Under the pieces are notes generated by a model. It ran no database searches. It was not told where the DNA came from and saw only the letters and a program-made list of their open reading frames with translations. Shown in pieces: positions 40,500 through 51,038 of a stretch of 64,000 bases of DNA. Both the position numbers and the translations under genes were made by a program. Where the stretch lies: the NCBI RefSeq assembly GCF_002150505.1, contig NZ_MSSV01000008.1, positions 1 to 64,000 on the forward strand, written 5' to 3'. This DNA is from Algoriphagus ratkowskyi (GTDB lineage Bacteria; Bacteroidota; Bacteroidia; Cytophagales; Cyclobacteriaceae). Position 1 is the stretch's first letter. Each line of letters starts with the position of its first letter.

Positions 40500-42392
40500 C
40501 TAATAAAGTACTCTAAAGCGGATGGTTCCGGGAATGTGTTTCAGGGCATCTAGCGCCTCATTAGAATAAGCCTTATCGATATCTGTAATTACGTATCCAA
40601 TTTTCTCATTTGTCTTTAAGTACTGGCCTACAATGTTGATCTCGAAGTTTGCAAGGATCTGATTGATTTTTGCCAATACCCCTGGCTCATTCATGTGAAT
40701 ATGAATAAGTCTATGTGCGTTTTGTAAAAATGGCAATTGTATATTAGGGAAGTTTACTGAGTTGTAAGTATTACCTGTGTTGATGTATTCCATTATTTTT
40801 CCTGGAACAAATCGAGCAATGTTTTCTTGCGCCTCAAGCGTACTTCCTCCGATATGTGGAGTTAAGATTGTGTTTGGCAAGCCAATCAATTCAGAAACGA
40901 ATGGCTCCTTATTATTCTTTGGTTCCTCAGGAAAAACATCGAATGCACAACCTGCCAATCTACCAGAAAGGATCGCGTCACGGACAGCAGGTATATCTAC
41001 TACATGTCCTCGGCTAAGATTCAACAAGTAGGAGCCAGGCTTCATCAATTCGATTTTCTTTCTGTTGATTACATTTTCATTGTCTTTTCTACCATCCACA
41101 TGTAGTGAGATGATATCACAGGTGCTCATCAATTCATCCAGGGAATTTACTTTGGTAGCATTACCAAGTGCGAGCTTCTCGATCACGTCATAATAGAAAA
41201 CATTCAATCCCATGTTTTCTGCTAGAACTGAAAGCTGAGCTCCAATATTTCCGTAACCTACGATACCAAGTTTTTTGCCTCTGATTTCGAAACTACCTGT
41301 AGCAGATTTATCCCAATTTCCCTGATGCATGGAAGCCGTCTTATCTACAAAATTTCGCATCAAGAAAATGATTTCTGCTATGGCCATTTCCACCACAGAG
41401 CGGGTGTTGCTGAAAGGGGCATTGAAAACTGCGATTCCTTTTTCTTGGCAAGTCTCCAGATCGATCTGGTTTGTACCTATACAAAATGCACCTACAGCGA
41501 TCAGTCTATTAGCATTCTCCAATACCTTCTTGGTAACATTAGTTTTCGAACGAATTCCTAGAATAGAAACAGTTTTAATTTTCTCGCAGAGTTCTTCTTC
41601 TGACATGGCAGAGCTTACGACTTCTACTTCGTAACCTTCTGCATTGAGTAGATCTACACCGATTTGGTGGACGTTTTCAAGGAGCAATACCTTGATTCTG
41701 CTTTTCGGGTAAGAGAATTTCGTGTTCAAATTATTGACGTATAAGATTTCATCCAAACTAGGCGCAATATGATCTGCCTCTCTGGTCACTTTAGGACGGT
41801 TAACATTTTCGGTAAACGCATAAAACTTATTAGCTAACCCAGACTTTTTGATTTCGTAATCAGTGTAGCCGTCTCCGATTACATAGATCTCGCCTTCAAG
41901 ATTGATTTTTCTAATTGTTTCCGCCTTACCGTTATTTTGAGAAAGTGGGTTTTCACGGTTGAAATCTACAATATTATCCGCTTCATCATAGACAAATTCA
42001 TTAGCAAACACATTATCCTCATGAATACCATAATCGCCAACGATAGGTATGATGAAATCCCTGAAGCCATTGGATACAATATAGATGTTTGCAGCATTGT
42101 CTTGTAAAAACTCTTTGTTTCGCTCAAATGATTTGGAAACCTTTTGCTTTAATTCCAGGATCAGATCGGCAATTTGTGACTTGGTAGCTTTAAGAATATC
42201 GATTCGCTGAATAAGACTATCCCGAAATGTCACAGTTCCTTCCATTCCTTTGTCTGTGATATCCTTGATCGCTTTGAGCTTTATTTCTCTGTCTGGGTCA
42301 TTAAGAAGACTGATTTCACCCAGAATATCGAGTGCTTCTACTTGGGTGAATGTACTGTCAAAATCTATAATAAACTTAGTAGGATGGGGCAT
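40500..42392 (-). CDS. Fused phosphoserine phosphatase-like / 3-phosphoglycerate dehydrogenase
   Basis: The product is 630 residues. Residues 1-220 form a HAD phosphatase of the SerB type: IDFDSTFT (nucleophile DxDxT), VSNGF, NNGKAETI and GDGYTDYE. Residues about 235-545 are a D-isomer 2-hydroxyacid dehydrogenase of the SerA type: GYGNIGAQL, NLSRGHVVD and TPHIGGSTLEAQ. The C-terminus is an ACT domain (HIHMNEPGVLAKINQILA), the usual serine sensor. It joins the first and last steps of serine synthesis in one chain; serC is not in the window. I chose the ATG at 42392; a TTG four codons earlier is less likely. All motifs look intact, so both activities are plausible. Confidence 0.92.
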   Translation of the reverse strand: MPHPTKFIIDFDSTFTQVEALDILGEISLLNDPDREIKLKAIKDITDKGMEGTVTFRDSLIQRIDILKATKSQIADLILELKQKVSKSFERNKEFLQDNAANIYIVSNGFRDFIIPIVGDYGIHEDNVFANEFVYDEADNIVDFNRENPLSQNNGKAETIRKINLEGEIYVIGDGYTDYEIKKSGLANKFYAFTENVNRPKVTREADHIAPSLDEILYVNNLNTKFSYPKSRIKVLLLENVHQIGVDLLNAEGYEVEVVSSAMSEEELCEKIKTVSILGIRSKTNVTKKVLENANRLIAVGAFCIGTNQIDLETCQEKGIAVFNAPFSNTRSVVEMAIAEIIFLMRNFVDKTASMHQGNWDKSATGSFEIRGKKLGIVGYGNIGAQLSVLAENMGLNVFYYDVIEKLALGNATKVNSLDELMSTCDIISLHVDGRKDNENVINRKKIELMKPGSYLLNLSRGHVVDIPAVRDAILSGRLAGCAFDVFPEEPKNNKEPFVSELIGLPNTILTPHIGGSTLEAQENIARFVPGKIMEYINTGNTYNSVNFPNIQLPFLQNAHRLIHIHMNEPGVLAKINQILANFEINIVGQYLKTNEKIGYVITDIDKAYSNEALDALKHIPGTIRFRVLY

Positions 42393-42417
42393 GAGTAAGG
42401 TCAATAGGTTAATAAGT

Positions 42418-45913: not shown

Positions 45914-46591
45914 ATGGAAAACTTAGTGAATAATATGAAGATGGAGGTGCATGACAATCTCTATCTAAAAGAACCATTTAGCTCAGAATTGGGTGTATCC
46001 ATAGTCCAGAACGGAGCTGTGCTTATACAGGATTTAGGTATGGAGAGCTTTACCTTTAAAAAGCTTGCAGTCAGCGTGGGCGTGACTGAAGCGGCAGTTT
46101 ACCGCTACTTTGAAAATAAGCATATGCTATTGCTTTACCTTACAGCTTGGTATTGGGCATGGATGGAAGTAAATTATGTTTATTCTACCGCAAATCTTGA
46201 AAGCAGCAAAGCTCGCTTATCTATTGCCATGAGACTCATCGTTAATGGGCCGGTGTTCACCAAGAATGTCCATATAAATCCTGCTGATTTGCGTAACATC
46301 GTAGTCAATGAATCACTAAAAGGATACCTGACCAAAACCGTAGATGAAGAACATGAAAATGGGATTTTTGCTCAAGTATATAGTTTTGGAGAGCGGATTT
46401 CTGAATTGATATTTGAAATAAACCCTGCTTATCCCTATCCAAAAACCCTGGCCTACACGATCATGGAGTCCAGTTTACTTCATGCGTTTAATGCAAAGCA
46501 TTTACCAAACATGACTGAGCAATCACTAAACTCGTCAAACCGTCTCGTTTTTTTTGAAGATTTAATAATAAAGGCAATCTCAAATGAATAA
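45914..46591 (+). CDS. TetR/AcrR-family regulator of the exporter operon
   Basis: The product is 225 residues. The N-terminal helix-turn-helix is clear: FTFKKLAVSVGVTEAAVYRY, then FENKHMLLLYL (about residues 47-77). The C-terminal ligand domain is helical and not assignable. It overlaps the ABC-transporter gene by 8 bases, so it is translated with the exporter it presumably controls, and a perfect palindrome precedes it. Export-pump regulators of this type are usually released by a compound that the pump handles. Confidence 0.9.
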   Translation: MENLVNNMKMEVHDNLYLKEPFSSELGVSIVQNGAVLIQDLGMESFTFKKLAVSVGVTEAAVYRYFENKHMLLLYLTAWYWAWMEVNYVYSTANLESSKARLSIAMRLIVNGPVFTKNVHINPADLRNIVVNESLKGYLTKTVDEEHENGIFAQVYSFGERISELIFEINPAYPYPKTLAYTIMESSLLHAFNAKHLPNMTEQSLNSSNRLVFFEDLIIKAISNE

Positions 46592-48293
46592 TTCCAAGAC
46601 AATTACTCCTATGAAGCGATTTTTCAATCTGCTGAAAGAGGAAAAGGATCAGGTGTATTCGATCTACTTTTATGCCATTTTAAATGGTTTGGTAGCGTTG
46701 TCACTACCTCTTGGAATACAGGCTATTTTGAATTTCGTCCTAGGAGGTAGGATTACCACTTCTTGGGTGGTATTAGTTATTATTGTCGCTGCAGGTATTG
46801 CTTTTGGTGGTTTTCTACAGATCTCCCAATTGCAAATCACAGAAAAACTACAGCAAAGAATATTTGCCAAGGCTGGACTTTCTTTAGCATACAGACTTCC
46901 GAAAATTAAATCTGAGCTATTTCACGGTACCTATGCTCCTGAGATTGTCAATAGATTTTTTGATACTGTAAATCTTCAAAAGGGGGTTTCAAAGATTTTG
47001 GTGGAGTACTCCACTGCACTGATTCAGGTAATTTTCGGTTTAATTCTTTTGTCGTTTTATCATGCGACTTTTATTCTGTTTGGGATAGTTCTGGTACTTA
47101 TACTAGTGACGATATTCTATTTCACCAGCCCCAAAGGTATGTCCACTGCGATGAAGGAATCCACGCATAAATATGAGACAGCATATTGGTTGGAAGAGAT
47201 TGGACGTACCCTAAATACATTTAAACTGGTGGGAGGGAATTCAAAGCTCCCGATTCTTCGGGTGGACAAGCTTCTCGCACGTTATGTGGAATTTAGAACA
47301 CATCACTTTTCAGTATTAGTTTTTCAGTATAAAATTTTGATTGGATTTAAGGTATTAATTGTGACTAGTCTTTTGATTGCCGGTAGTTTGCTTTTGATCA
47401 ATGGACAAATCAGTATAGGTCAATTTGTAGCTGCAGAAGTAATTATCGTAATGGTAGTGAATGCTGTGGAAAAATTGATCATTTCTCTGGAGACTGTTTA
47501 TGACACGCTTGTGGCTTCTGAGAAACTTGGACAGATCATGGACATGGAGCTTGAGGATCACAATATATCCGAAAAGGATATCACTAATCAATACAAGGGA
47601 ATCAAATTGGCTATGGAAGATGTCCTTTTTCAGCCAAGGGATGTAATTAAGCCTATTTTGAAAGGAGTGACTCTAACTATTGAGCCTGGTTCCAAGGCAG
47701 TAATCACTGGGAAAAGTGGAAGTGGGAAAAGCGCAATTCTTGCCCTTTTTTCAGGATTATATGAAACCTATCAGGGCAAGGTAAAGATCAATGATCTCTC
47801 ATTGGAGATGATACATCTGGACAAGTACAGAAGTTCTATAGGAAATTGCATGGAGCTGCAACAGATTTTCCATGGAACTATTGGTGAGAATATACTCGTA
47901 GGTAGAGACATAGAACCAAAACAAATGGAGTTTCTCCTTGAATTGGTAGGACTAAAGGACTTTGTGTATCAATTGCCAGAGGATTTGCAAACGGTACTTC
48001 TGCCAGAAGGCAGAGGACTTTCAAGAAAGATGGCTCAGGCGATTATGCTAGCAAGAGCACTTGTGGGTGAACCTCAGGCAATGATTCTAGAGAATTCGCT
48101 TCAACATCTTGATAAGGAGATAAAAAACCGCGTAAAGGATTATTTGTTTAATGGAAAGTGGACACTGGTGATGGTTACTCAAGATATAGAAGTAATCATG
48201 CAAGCTAGTCAGGTAATTGTGATGGATAACGGTGAGCTTATTTTCCAAGGAAATCAAGCCGGATATCAGAATTTTTTGACGCTTAACTCATAA
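46584..48293 (+). CDS. ABC half-transporter with degenerate nucleotide-binding domain
   Basis: The product is 569 residues: about six membrane helices (to residue 310), then an ABC ATPase domain, the layout of type I secretion/lipid exporters without a peptidase domain. Walker A is intact (GKSGSGKS, 376-383) and a Q-loop is present (about 426). But the signature LSGGQ reads LSRKM (479-483), the Walker B Asp and catalytic Glu read Glu503-Asn504 (MILEN), and the H-loop His is Gln533 (VTQD). It should bind ATP but hydrolyse it poorly. Such domains usually work beside an active partner, which is not in the window. HlyD and TolC genes follow directly. Confidence 0.88.
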   Translation: MNNSKTITPMKRFFNLLKEEKDQVYSIYFYAILNGLVALSLPLGIQAILNFVLGGRITTSWVVLVIIVAAGIAFGGFLQISQLQITEKLQQRIFAKAGLSLAYRLPKIKSELFHGTYAPEIVNRFFDTVNLQKGVSKILVEYSTALIQVIFGLILLSFYHATFILFGIVLVLILVTIFYFTSPKGMSTAMKESTHKYETAYWLEEIGRTLNTFKLVGGNSKLPILRVDKLLARYVEFRTHHFSVLVFQYKILIGFKVLIVTSLLIAGSLLLINGQISIGQFVAAEVIIVMVVNAVEKLIISLETVYDTLVASEKLGQIMDMELEDHNISEKDITNQYKGIKLAMEDVLFQPRDVIKPILKGVTLTIEPGSKAVITGKSGSGKSAILALFSGLYETYQGKVKINDLSLEMIHLDKYRSSIGNCMELQQIFHGTIGENILVGRDIEPKQMEFLLELVGLKDFVYQLPEDLQTVLLPEGRGLSRKMAQAIMLARALVGEPQAMILENSLQHLDKEIKNRVKDYLFNGKWTLVMVTQDIEVIMQASQVIVMDNGELIFQGNQAGYQNFLTLNS

Positions 48294-48297
48294 GACT

Positions 48298-49653
48298 ATG
48301 TTAAACATCTCTGAAAATAAAATTAAAGATATTAGGCCATTTGAGCAATCTGTAAGCCTCAAGATGACTCTTGCATGTGCGCATAAGAAAACAAGGGTTA
48401 GAATTTTGTTTGTGTCGTGTTGCGTTGTTTTTCTTATGCTTTTTCTGCCTTGGACTCAGTATATACGATCCCAAGGTTATGTCACTATGCTTCAGCCTCA
48501 GCACAGAGCCCAGACTATTCATTCAGTAATAGCAGGAAGGATAGATAAATGGTATGTGAATGAAGGAGCTTTCGTAAGCAAGGGAGACACTATTGTCAGT
48601 ATAACAGAAGTGAAAGATGAATACTTTGATTCATTACTGCTTCCAAGAACTCAGCTTCAAGTAGACGCAAAGAATCTTTCTGCGCTTTCTTATAAGGAAA
48701 AAGTAAAAGCATTGGATAGTCAGATAGCAGCGCTGAAACGAAATAATATCCTTCGGAAGGAGCAAGCTAGAAACAAACTCCAAATGGCTGAACTGCAGGT
48801 TCAGTCTGATAGTATACGCTTCGAGCAAGCTAAAGTCAATTATGAAATTGGTATCAAGCAACTCGGAAGAGCAGAAAAGCTCTACGAAGAAGGCTTACGA
48901 TCGCTCACCGATTTGGAAACAAGAAGGCTAAAGTTTCAAGAGGTTCAGGCCAGTGTAATTGGAGTGGAGAATAGTTTGTTGAGTAGTAAAAATTCCTTCG
49001 TATCTGCTCAATTGGAGTTAGATGCGATAGATAATGATTTCAAAGATAAGTTGGCTAAAGCCGAATCGGACATGTACACGGCTCAATCCAGCCAATACGA
49101 TGCGGAAGGTTCTGCTTCGAAACTTGAGAATCAATACTCCAACTATGAAGCACGAACTGGATTTAGGCATATTTTGGCTCCACAGGATGGATACATAGCT
49201 GAAGCAATTCAAGTAGGATTGGGAGAGACTATCAAGGAAGGTGATCAAATCGTAAATATCGTTCCGTCCAATGGTGAACTGGCTGTAGAGATGTATATCT
49301 CACCAGTAGATCTGCCTTTGATGGAAGTTGGCAAGAAGGTTCGATTCATCTTTGATGGATGGCCTGCAATTGTATTCTCAGGTTGGCCAAAGCTATCCAA
49401 TGGTACATTTGGTGGAGTTATTGTCGCGATCGATCAATTCGCTGGAAAGAGCAATCAATTCAGAGTTTTAGTGGCTGAGGATCCAGAAGAGGCAGCCTGG
49501 CCAGAGGTTTTGCGTGTAGGATCTGGAGCTGATGGAATAGCCTTGCTGAATGACGTTCCTGTTTGGTATGAAATCTGGCGTCAGCTGAATGGATTCCCTG
49601 CAGATTACTACACTAGGATTCAGAAAGAAGACATAGCAAAAAGTAAGAAATGA
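48298..49653 (+). CDS. HlyD-family membrane fusion (adaptor) protein
   Basis: The product is 451 residues: a short cytoplasmic N-terminus, one membrane helix (ILFVSCCVVFLMLFLPW, about residues 38-54), a lipoyl-like half (HSVIAGRIDKWYVNEGAFV), a long coiled coil (residues about 110-265), the second lipoyl half (ILAPQDGYIAEAIQVGLGET) and a beta-barrel region. It bridges the inner-membrane ABC protein and the TolC channel in tripartite exporters. It starts 4 bases after the ABC gene and overlaps the TolC-family gene by 4 bases. Confidence 0.92.
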   Translation: MLNISENKIKDIRPFEQSVSLKMTLACAHKKTRVRILFVSCCVVFLMLFLPWTQYIRSQGYVTMLQPQHRAQTIHSVIAGRIDKWYVNEGAFVSKGDTIVSITEVKDEYFDSLLLPRTQLQVDAKNLSALSYKEKVKALDSQIAALKRNNILRKEQARNKLQMAELQVQSDSIRFEQAKVNYEIGIKQLGRAEKLYEEGLRSLTDLETRRLKFQEVQASVIGVENSLLSSKNSFVSAQLELDAIDNDFKDKLAKAESDMYTAQSSQYDAEGSASKLENQYSNYEARTGFRHILAPQDGYIAEAIQVGLGETIKEGDQIVNIVPSNGELAVEMYISPVDLPLMEVGKKVRFIFDGWPAIVFSGWPKLSNGTFGGVIVAIDQFAGKSNQFRVLVAEDPEEAAWPEVLRVGSGADGIALLNDVPVWYEIWRQLNGFPADYYTRIQKEDIAKSKK

Positions 49654-51038
49654 AAAGGACTCTCTTTACACTCTTATTAATTGCGAGCGGCCTCAGCCTT
49701 CAGGCTCAGGTGCCTGATACCTTATCATTTGATACATATCTTGAATGGGTGAACGCTTATCATCCACTTTCTGCGCAGGCAGACATTATGCTTACCATGG
49801 GTGAAATGGAAGTTCACACGGCACGAGGTGGTTTTGATCCCTTGCTTTATGGGAATTTGGACAAGAAAAGCTACGACGAAAAGACGTATTACGATAAGCG
49901 GGAAGCTGGAATCTCTATCCCAACATGGGCTGGAATCGAACTTAATGGATCATTTGAGCAGAACTCAGGACAATATCTAAATCCTGAAAACTCAGTACCA
50001 TCGGGAGGTTTATTGTCAGCAGGAGCATCCGTGAATCTGGGGCAAGGACTGATTTTGGATGATAGAAGAGCAGGTCTACGTAAAGCACAAATTTATCAGC
50101 AGTCCACGGAATCGGAGCGAAAAAGCATGCTGAATGAATTGTATCTACAGGCAACTGACGCTTATTGGAATTGGTCCCTAGCTTATGAAAACAGGTCACT
50201 TTTAATCGAAGGCGTAATCCTGGCAAAAATGAGATTTCAAGGAGTGAAAACCAGTTACGAGCAAGGAGATTTTCCAGCTATTGACACGGTGGAAGCAGCT
50301 TCACAACTGTTGAATAGGGAATACAATCTTCAAAAAGCCGAAAATGAGTTGTTTATTAGAACTCAGAATCTCAAAAATTTTCTCTGGGATGAGTCAGGCA
50401 ATCCTATTGCTTTGAATCAGGAGACTATTCCTGAAAAGTTATACACTGAACAAGCATTGATATTGAATGAGGAAGAATTGAGGGTATTGGTGGGGGATCA
50501 TCCTGAGTTAATGCTGGCAGATTATGAATTGGCCAGTCTTAATGTAGACAGGAGGCTCAAGGCTCAGCAGATTATTCCTGTCGTAAAACTCAAGTATAAT
50601 TTCCTAACTGAGAATCTTAACCAATTTGATCAGGCAGGCTTCTTTGAGAATAATTACAAATGGGGGCTTACCGTTTATACTCCACTGATGTGGAGAAAAG
50701 CCAGAGGAGGGATGCGTTTGGCTGAAGCCAAAATTGATTTTAAGCAGAATTCCAGAGATTTGAAGGAACTTCAGCTTCGCACTAAGCTCGAAAATGAATT
50801 AAATGGCTGGAGTGCGTTAAATTCTCAGATCAATACGTATACACGAAATGTAGCCGCATTGGAAATGTTGCTACAAGGGGAAATAAGGAAATTTGAAATA
50901 GGAGAAAGTAGTTTGTTTTTAGTCAACAGTAGAGAGGTTTCTGTCTTCAGTTCCAAAATCACTTTGAATGAATTGCTTTCAAAGAGAAAGGTATCCTTTG
51001 CCAAAACGAGATTTGCAGCCGGAGTTGGGTTTGACTGA
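49650..51038 (+). CDS. TolC-family outer-membrane channel protein
   Basis: The product is 462 residues with a signal peptide (LFTLLLIASGLSLQAQ). Two similar halves each contain long helices separated by short beta segments, the pattern of the outer membrane efflux protein family (for example ELYLQATDAYWNWSLAYENR, then a matching ELNGWSALNSQINTY late in the protein). With the ABC and HlyD proteins it completes a trans-envelope exporter. ATGA overlap with the HlyD gene indicates coupled translation. The exported substrate is unknown; no obvious toxin or peptide gene is in the operon. Confidence 0.9.
   Translation: MKRTLFTLLLIASGLSLQAQVPDTLSFDTYLEWVNAYHPLSAQADIMLTMGEMEVHTARGGFDPLLYGNLDKKSYDEKTYYDKREAGISIPTWAGIELNGSFEQNSGQYLNPENSVPSGGLLSAGASVNLGQGLILDDRRAGLRKAQIYQQSTESERKSMLNELYLQATDAYWNWSLAYENRSLLIEGVILAKMRFQGVKTSYEQGDFPAIDTVEAASQLLNREYNLQKAENELFIRTQNLKNFLWDESGNPIALNQETIPEKLYTEQALILNEEELRVLVGDHPELMLADYELASLNVDRRLKAQQIIPVVKLKYNFLTENLNQFDQAGFFENNYKWGLTVYTPLMWRKARGGMRLAEAKIDFKQNSRDLKELQLRTKLENELNGWSALNSQINTYTRNVAALEMLLQGEIRKFEIGESSLFLVNSREVSVFSSKITLNELLSKRKVSFAKTRFAAGVGFD

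Follow-up and report, generated by a model that had tools for sequence, protein, structure and literature searches.

An ABC-type exporter family with HlyD and TolC partners in Bacteroidota whose nucleotide-binding domains are degenerate or deleted

The inner-membrane motors listed in a major review of tripartite systems are of the ABC, RND and MFS kinds (PMC8277102). The roles played in ATP hydrolysis by the motifs of the nucleotide-binding domain (NBD) have been described, and in TAP, Pdr5 and others the Walker B, H-loop and signature residues are degenerate at one site (PMC7756269). SbmA is a natural NBD-less, proton-driven transmembrane domain (TMD) of the ABC type, thought to be derived from an ABC exporter (PMC13316013), and ion-coupled transport has been measured for the membrane domains of LmrA (PMC2704374) and MsbA (PMC4979069) without their NBDs. 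Until now, the question of whether the TMD of an ABC exporter can work without ATP hydrolysis has been addressed with engineered truncations and with SbmA.

Here we describe an exporter from Algoriphagus ratkowskyi, encoded in a 64,000-nucleotide stretch of DNA (the window), and its relatives. In its best NCBIfam scores, its fold and its HlyD and TolC genes it is similar to the type I secretion and peptide exporters LssB, HlyB, PrtD and PCAT1. Unlike these, however, it scores far below every NCBIfam cut-off and belongs to a TetR-linked family that lacks the catalytic motifs and many members of which lack the NBD altogether. With SbmA/BacA (SLiPT) the NBD-less members share an ABC-type TMD without NBD, conserved acidic residues in the TMD and the survival of NBD-bearing relatives (PMC13316013), and the loss of coupling helices in SbmA/BacA has a partial counterpart in them. 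SbmA is nevertheless a peptide importer without HlyD/TolC partners, whereas here the intermediate with a degenerate NBD survives widely; moreover, the NBD-less members gave no match to the SbmA_BacA family, PF00664 alone scoring above its cut-off. The resemblance to the isolated membrane domains of LmrA and MsbA is that of an ABC exporter membrane domain standing alone (PMC2704374, PMC4979069), but those are laboratory truncations, whereas the deletion described here is natural and the gene has been kept by selection. Finally, transporters of the TAP/Pdr5 type retain one consensus site, whereas a single gene is present here, with losses on both NBD faces and no linked partner.

The exporter gene and its operon

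The gene (46584..48293; this and all other features of the operon lie on the forward strand) starts with ATG and encodes a 569-aa half transporter of the ABC exporter type with an NBD predicted to be non-catalytic. The protein matches both PF00664 (TMD) and PF00005 (NBD), and its AF2 model (mean pLDDT 83.7) displays the ABC exporter fold. When this model was submitted to Foldseek, PCAT1 was the best match and HlyB/D, PrtD and MsbA were close, with TM values of ~0.8-0.9 for PCAT1, HlyB and MsbA; as judged from the model, the protein is a normal half transporter by fold. The TMD (46605..47573, residues ~8-330) is the conserved part and the sole part left in the NBD-less relatives. Within it, residues ~203-214 (LEEIGRTLNTFK, 47190..47225) are taken here as coupling helix 2, on the basis of alignment to other exporters and of the known exporter fold. 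The first part of TM6 (47415..47474) carries the family-specific charged residues E285 and E296-K297.

The NBD (47616..48290, residues ~345-569) is degenerate. Walker A, GKSGSGKS, is intact (47709..47732, residues 376-383), but the signature reads LSRKM instead of LSGGQ (48018..48032, residues 479-483), the Asp-Glu pair of Walker B has become Glu-Asn in MILEN (48081..48095, residues 500-504) and the H-loop His is replaced by Gln533 within TQD (48180..48182). A preliminary description of this DNA had named precisely these features, all of which are borne out by the translation; its list of losses omitted the Q-loop, where the region NCMELQQI (47844..47867, residues 421-428), part of the stretch IGNCMELQQIF, has Glu424 in place of Gln. 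Thus, of the hallmarks of an active ABC exporter, the protein possesses the TMD fold and Walker A, while LSGGQ, the Walker B DE, the Q-loop Gln and the H-loop His are absent. The 4.98-Mb genome also contains several canonical ABC exporters, and its other half-exporters whose motifs were read have kept the Walker B acidic pair (DE, in one case DD) and the H-loop His, most of them LSGGQ as well. Since these proteins keep such residues and the same positions are degenerate in every orthologue read, the loss goes beyond what would be expected by chance.

The exporter gene is the second of four in the order TetR, ABC exporter, HlyD and TolC, and both gene coordinates and family matches agree with the operon originally proposed. 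The gene for the TetR-family regulator (45914..46591) runs into the start of the exporter gene, which is followed by those for an HlyD-type periplasmic adaptor (48298..49653) and a TolC-type outer-membrane factor (49650..51038); in nearly all members read, HlyD adjoins the exporter gene and TolC adjoins HlyD. As in type I secretion, ABC, HlyD and TolC are thus found in one locus, whereas the ATP-hydrolysing inner-membrane motor of such systems appears to be missing, judging from the vanished catalytic motifs and from a nested clade that has no NBD. No secreted substrate was noticed beside the exporter gene. Linkage to TetR, which is found in most NBD-bearing relatives, suggests that the exported molecule may be small and perhaps toxic. 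Upstream of the operon, a 634-aa ORF on the reverse strand (40500-42404) appears, from its translation read by eye, to join a HAD domain of the phosphoserine phosphatase type to a domain of the D-3-phosphoglycerate dehydrogenase type.

Degenerate and missing NBDs among the relatives

An orthologue at 63-96% identity is present in 31 of 35 congeneric genomes (the window's own being left out), in one case split into two ORFs, and the remaining four contain unrelated exporters only. Relatives at the level of the order (36-42% identity) are degenerate in the same motifs, but in differing ways. The family was detected at E<=1e-80 in 99 of 392 sampled genomes of the phylum and, with a profile of the TMD only, in 155/395 genomes of the class and 215/291 of the order. 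Among 170 aligned degenerate NBDs, none has the full catalytic set; 168-169 retain the Gly and Lys of Walker A, whereas many different residues occupy the signature, Walker B and H-loop positions. In some members another residue takes the place of the Walker A Ser/Thr, and most still have an acidic residue at Walker B or adjacent to it. The preliminary description had asked whether orthologues share the substitutions, and had taken canonical motifs in them as a sign of pseudogenisation or a sequencing problem in this copy. Loss was seen in every orthologue read, in the genus as well as in the class, DE and His being kept in an outgroup clade only.

A description of this exporter family was not found in searches of open-access full texts. 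A number of relatives (L054-L058, L060, L063, L064, L074, L075, L077, L078 and L105-L118) carry an N-terminal extension of ~160-200 aa that is absent from the window protein; searches of Pfam and PDB with it yielded no trustworthy match, and a C39-like origin would be only a guess. One relative with a degenerate NBD, L125 (5007-6662), has lost Walker A too and might represent a stage preceding deletion of the domain.

Deletion is what characterizes a further set of relatives. Seven proteins of 334-367 aa (L066 and L098-L103), encoded next to HlyD and TolC, end at profile positions 323-328 (323-332 for NBD-less proteins as a whole), just ahead of the NBD, so that Walker A is absent from this clade. 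An eighth candidate, L061 (4947-6679), was rejected, as its gene consists of two overlapping ORFs of 275 and 311 aa, probably because of a frameshift. When a profile of the NBD-less proteins was used and the matches were tallied by hand, this form was found in at least 50 sampled genomes, 45 of them from the sample of the order and the other five from a different order of the class, and the same layout, with HlyD and TolC directly downstream, was seen at 11 more NBD-less loci read with their flanks. NBD-less and NBD-bearing forms occur within one genus in g43 (L101, L103 and L252 vs L126) and in g13 (L100/L250 vs L065/L317), and the genome G883 carries at least two NBD-less operons (L311, L312). 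A second, independent loss in genome G656 was considered and rejected, since the ORF of L303 is cut by the end of the contig.

In a tree built on TMD columns alone, all 38 distinct NBD-less proteins form a single clade (SH-aLRT 99) nested in the clade with degenerate NBDs, its neighbours being the degenerate proteins L064, L313 and L314. The NBD-less members of f22 cluster with those of f11 (support 99), although the two families are from different orders, which suggests that the NBD-less operon moved between orders by horizontal transfer, with replacement. The degenerate clade is itself separated, at SH-aLRT 100, from an outgroup clade whose 16 members, found elsewhere in the phylum, keep the Walker B DE, 14 of them together with the H-loop His. 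The signature is mostly weak in these proteins, three of which (L113, L119, L120) have LSTGQ; the outgroup proteins are probably active. HlyD follows in 15 and TolC in 14 of the 16 outgroup loci, and none has a linked TetR. L118, a member of the outgroup clade, has itself lost the Glu.

A stand-alone NBD resembling those of the family was not found in seven NBD-less genomes, the best match (31% identity) lying within a full-length exporter; this search was a weak one, as NBDs of the family share only 22-44% identity with the query. Two NBD-less loci of genus g28 have, downstream of TolC, a separate gene for an ABC ATPase (L098, 10224-11081; L310, 1124-1981), which has its best scores, far below cut-off, with ATPases of the PmtA/GldA type. 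It was discarded as a general partner because it resembles other transporter classes and does not occur at the other NBD-less loci whose flanks were read, although at L098 and L310 themselves such a partnership is possible.

Selection and the contact between NBD and TMD

The two domains of the exporter have diverged at different rates. Across the 26 congeneric genomes with both genes, mean identity within the family was 0.82 (TMD) and 0.59 (NBD) as compared with 0.85 and 0.84 for a canonical exporter of the same genomes, and the median dN ratio of NBD to TMD was 2.5 as compared with 1.1 in the canonical control. Likewise, the NBD was less conserved than the TMD in all 14,253 of the 14,253 (non-independent) pairs in the class with degenerate NBDs. 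The TMD is under strong purifying selection, and in the NBD-less genes w is mostly 0.03-0.36, with dS near saturation for many pairs. For the degenerate NBD, w is ~0.05-0.1, indicating purifying selection and hence that the domain is kept for some purpose. Together with the orthologues that share the same loss, this value rules out a pseudogene or sequencing error.

The contact between the domains has changed where the NBD is missing. Of the TMD columns with conservation of 85% or more in the degenerate class, the NBD-less clade has lost six of the eight in the region of coupling helix 2 as compared with 12 of 93 outside it (Fisher p 3e-4, a value that is only indicative as the rows share ancestry), whereas all five in coupling helix 1 are kept. 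Measured against the coupling-helix loss of the SLiPT proteins, the NBD-less clade thus relaxes helix 2 but not helix 1, and the window protein still has its NBD. This pattern suggests that the degenerate NBD still docks via coupling helix 2 and, since the conserved columns of that helix are lost where the NBD is absent, that docking of an NBD in trans does not occur in the NBD-less clade. In the NBD-bearing members, retention of the Walker A Gly and Lys and purifying selection on the NBD indicate that nucleotide binding probably remains important.

Energy supply of the exporter

An exporter that has no NBD, or whose catalytic residues are gone on both NBD faces, is not expected to be powered by ATP hydrolysis of its own. 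Together with the precedents of MsbA, LmrA and SbmA and with the charged TMD residues of the family, this expectation favours ion-coupled export. We therefore interpret the operon, with a probability of roughly 0.55, as a TetR-regulated HlyD/TolC tripartite exporter of Bacteroidota in which an ABC-derived TMD now works without ATP hydrolysis of its own, presumably by ion coupling; a role in transport and the absence of ATPase activity are both part of this interpretation. The inner-membrane component would descend from an ATP-driven ABC exporter, catalysis having disappeared at the root of the clade that fills the class. The NBD may then have stayed in place on coupling helix 2, binding nucleotide or playing a structural or gating role, until, in a later lineage, it was deleted, leaving the TMD alone to partner HlyD and TolC. 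The TMD homodimer would cycle by ion, probably proton, coupling through E285, E296-K297, K133 and K137 and pass its substrate into the HlyD/TolC conduit. These residues are charged, lie in or near TM helices, are conserved in the family and are absent from the other exporters of the genome. They are also present, those of TM6 included, in the outgroup that keeps DE and mostly His; they did not arise with the catalytic loss and would be pre-adaptations. Q148 (TM3) and G44 (TM1) are fixed in both the degenerate and the NBD-less clade but do not occur in the outgroup. Conservation of coupling helix 1 in the NBD-less proteins counts against this interpretation, as do the retained Walker A Gly and Lys and the purifying selection on the NBD.

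The chances seem about even that the family preserves all stages of a route from primary to secondary transport, from an ATP-driven exporter of the type I secretion kind through a docked but dead NBD to a TMD-only form in an HlyD/TolC system powered by an ion gradient. If this were true, an ion-powered ABC-type fold would be a kind of inner-membrane motor outside the ABC, RND and MFS list given in the review cited above (PMC8277102). Natural versions with a dead NBD and without NBD, found in the same operon and sometimes in the same genus, and accompanied by probably active outgroups, make the question directly testable. It also follows that annotations as 'ABC transporter ATP-binding protein' in this group may be misleading as to energetics.

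Alternatively, the NBDs may bind ATP without hydrolysing it, as a slow switch or sensor, export being downhill or driven from the periplasm. Such an ATP-binding gate, already envisaged in the preliminary description, is unlikely for the family as a whole, though it may apply to NBD-bearing members: the near-invariant Walker A Gly and Lys (168-169/170), the low w of the NBD and the conservation of coupling helix 2 wherever an NBD is present speak for it. The signature and Q-loop required for a stable ATP sandwich are gone, however, some members have a different residue for the Walker A Ser/Thr, and a nested clade with an otherwise identical operon does without the NBD. Of the readings offered there, export driven in another way has the most support, in the NBD-less clade at any rate.

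The remaining reading of that description, an unlinked active half, fares worse. Several canonical exporters are encoded in the genome, and three HlyB dimers are present in the HlyB-HlyD complex (PMC11026475); a degenerate or NBD-less subunit might join canonical ABC dimers encoded elsewhere, for instance in an HlyB/D-like assembly with three ABC dimers on six HlyD, and these would provide the energy. We consider this improbable. The operons read contain no linked ABC half, as a paired half gene with a consensus site would be, and with losses on both NBD faces of the same subunit no heterodimer would have a canonical site. It is established that a half without an NBD cannot form an NBD pair, which makes such a partnership harder still to envisage for the nested clade, as does the conservation pattern of coupling helix 2. 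Furthermore, L002, the one exporter checked for co-occurrence, is missing at E<=1e-100 from the family-carrying genomes G041 and G051, and the NBD-less operon was apparently transferred between orders.

Tripartite parts can be shared between pumps, and the gene comes with HlyD and TolC in nearly every member read; as a scaffold, the TMD might have ceased to transport and merely anchor or open HlyD-TolC for another pump. This is hard to believe, as in the degenerate class 104 of 319 TMD columns show conservation of 85% or more, helix interiors included (PLG in TM1, GQFVAxE in TM6), which seems excessive for an anchor.

Weak ATP hydrolysis is possible and counts against ion coupling, given that Glu persists as the catalytic residue in a minority of degenerate NBDs (13 'EE', three 'xE' and one 'DE', all without the His). 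That the NBD still hydrolyses ATP slowly with substitute residues, as the intact Walker A and the acidic residue that most members retain at Walker B or adjacent to it might allow, is nonetheless the least credible explanation, since the H-loop His, Q-loop Gln and LSGGQ were lost together, their replacements vary without forming a conserved substitute set, and the nested clade has deleted the NBD.
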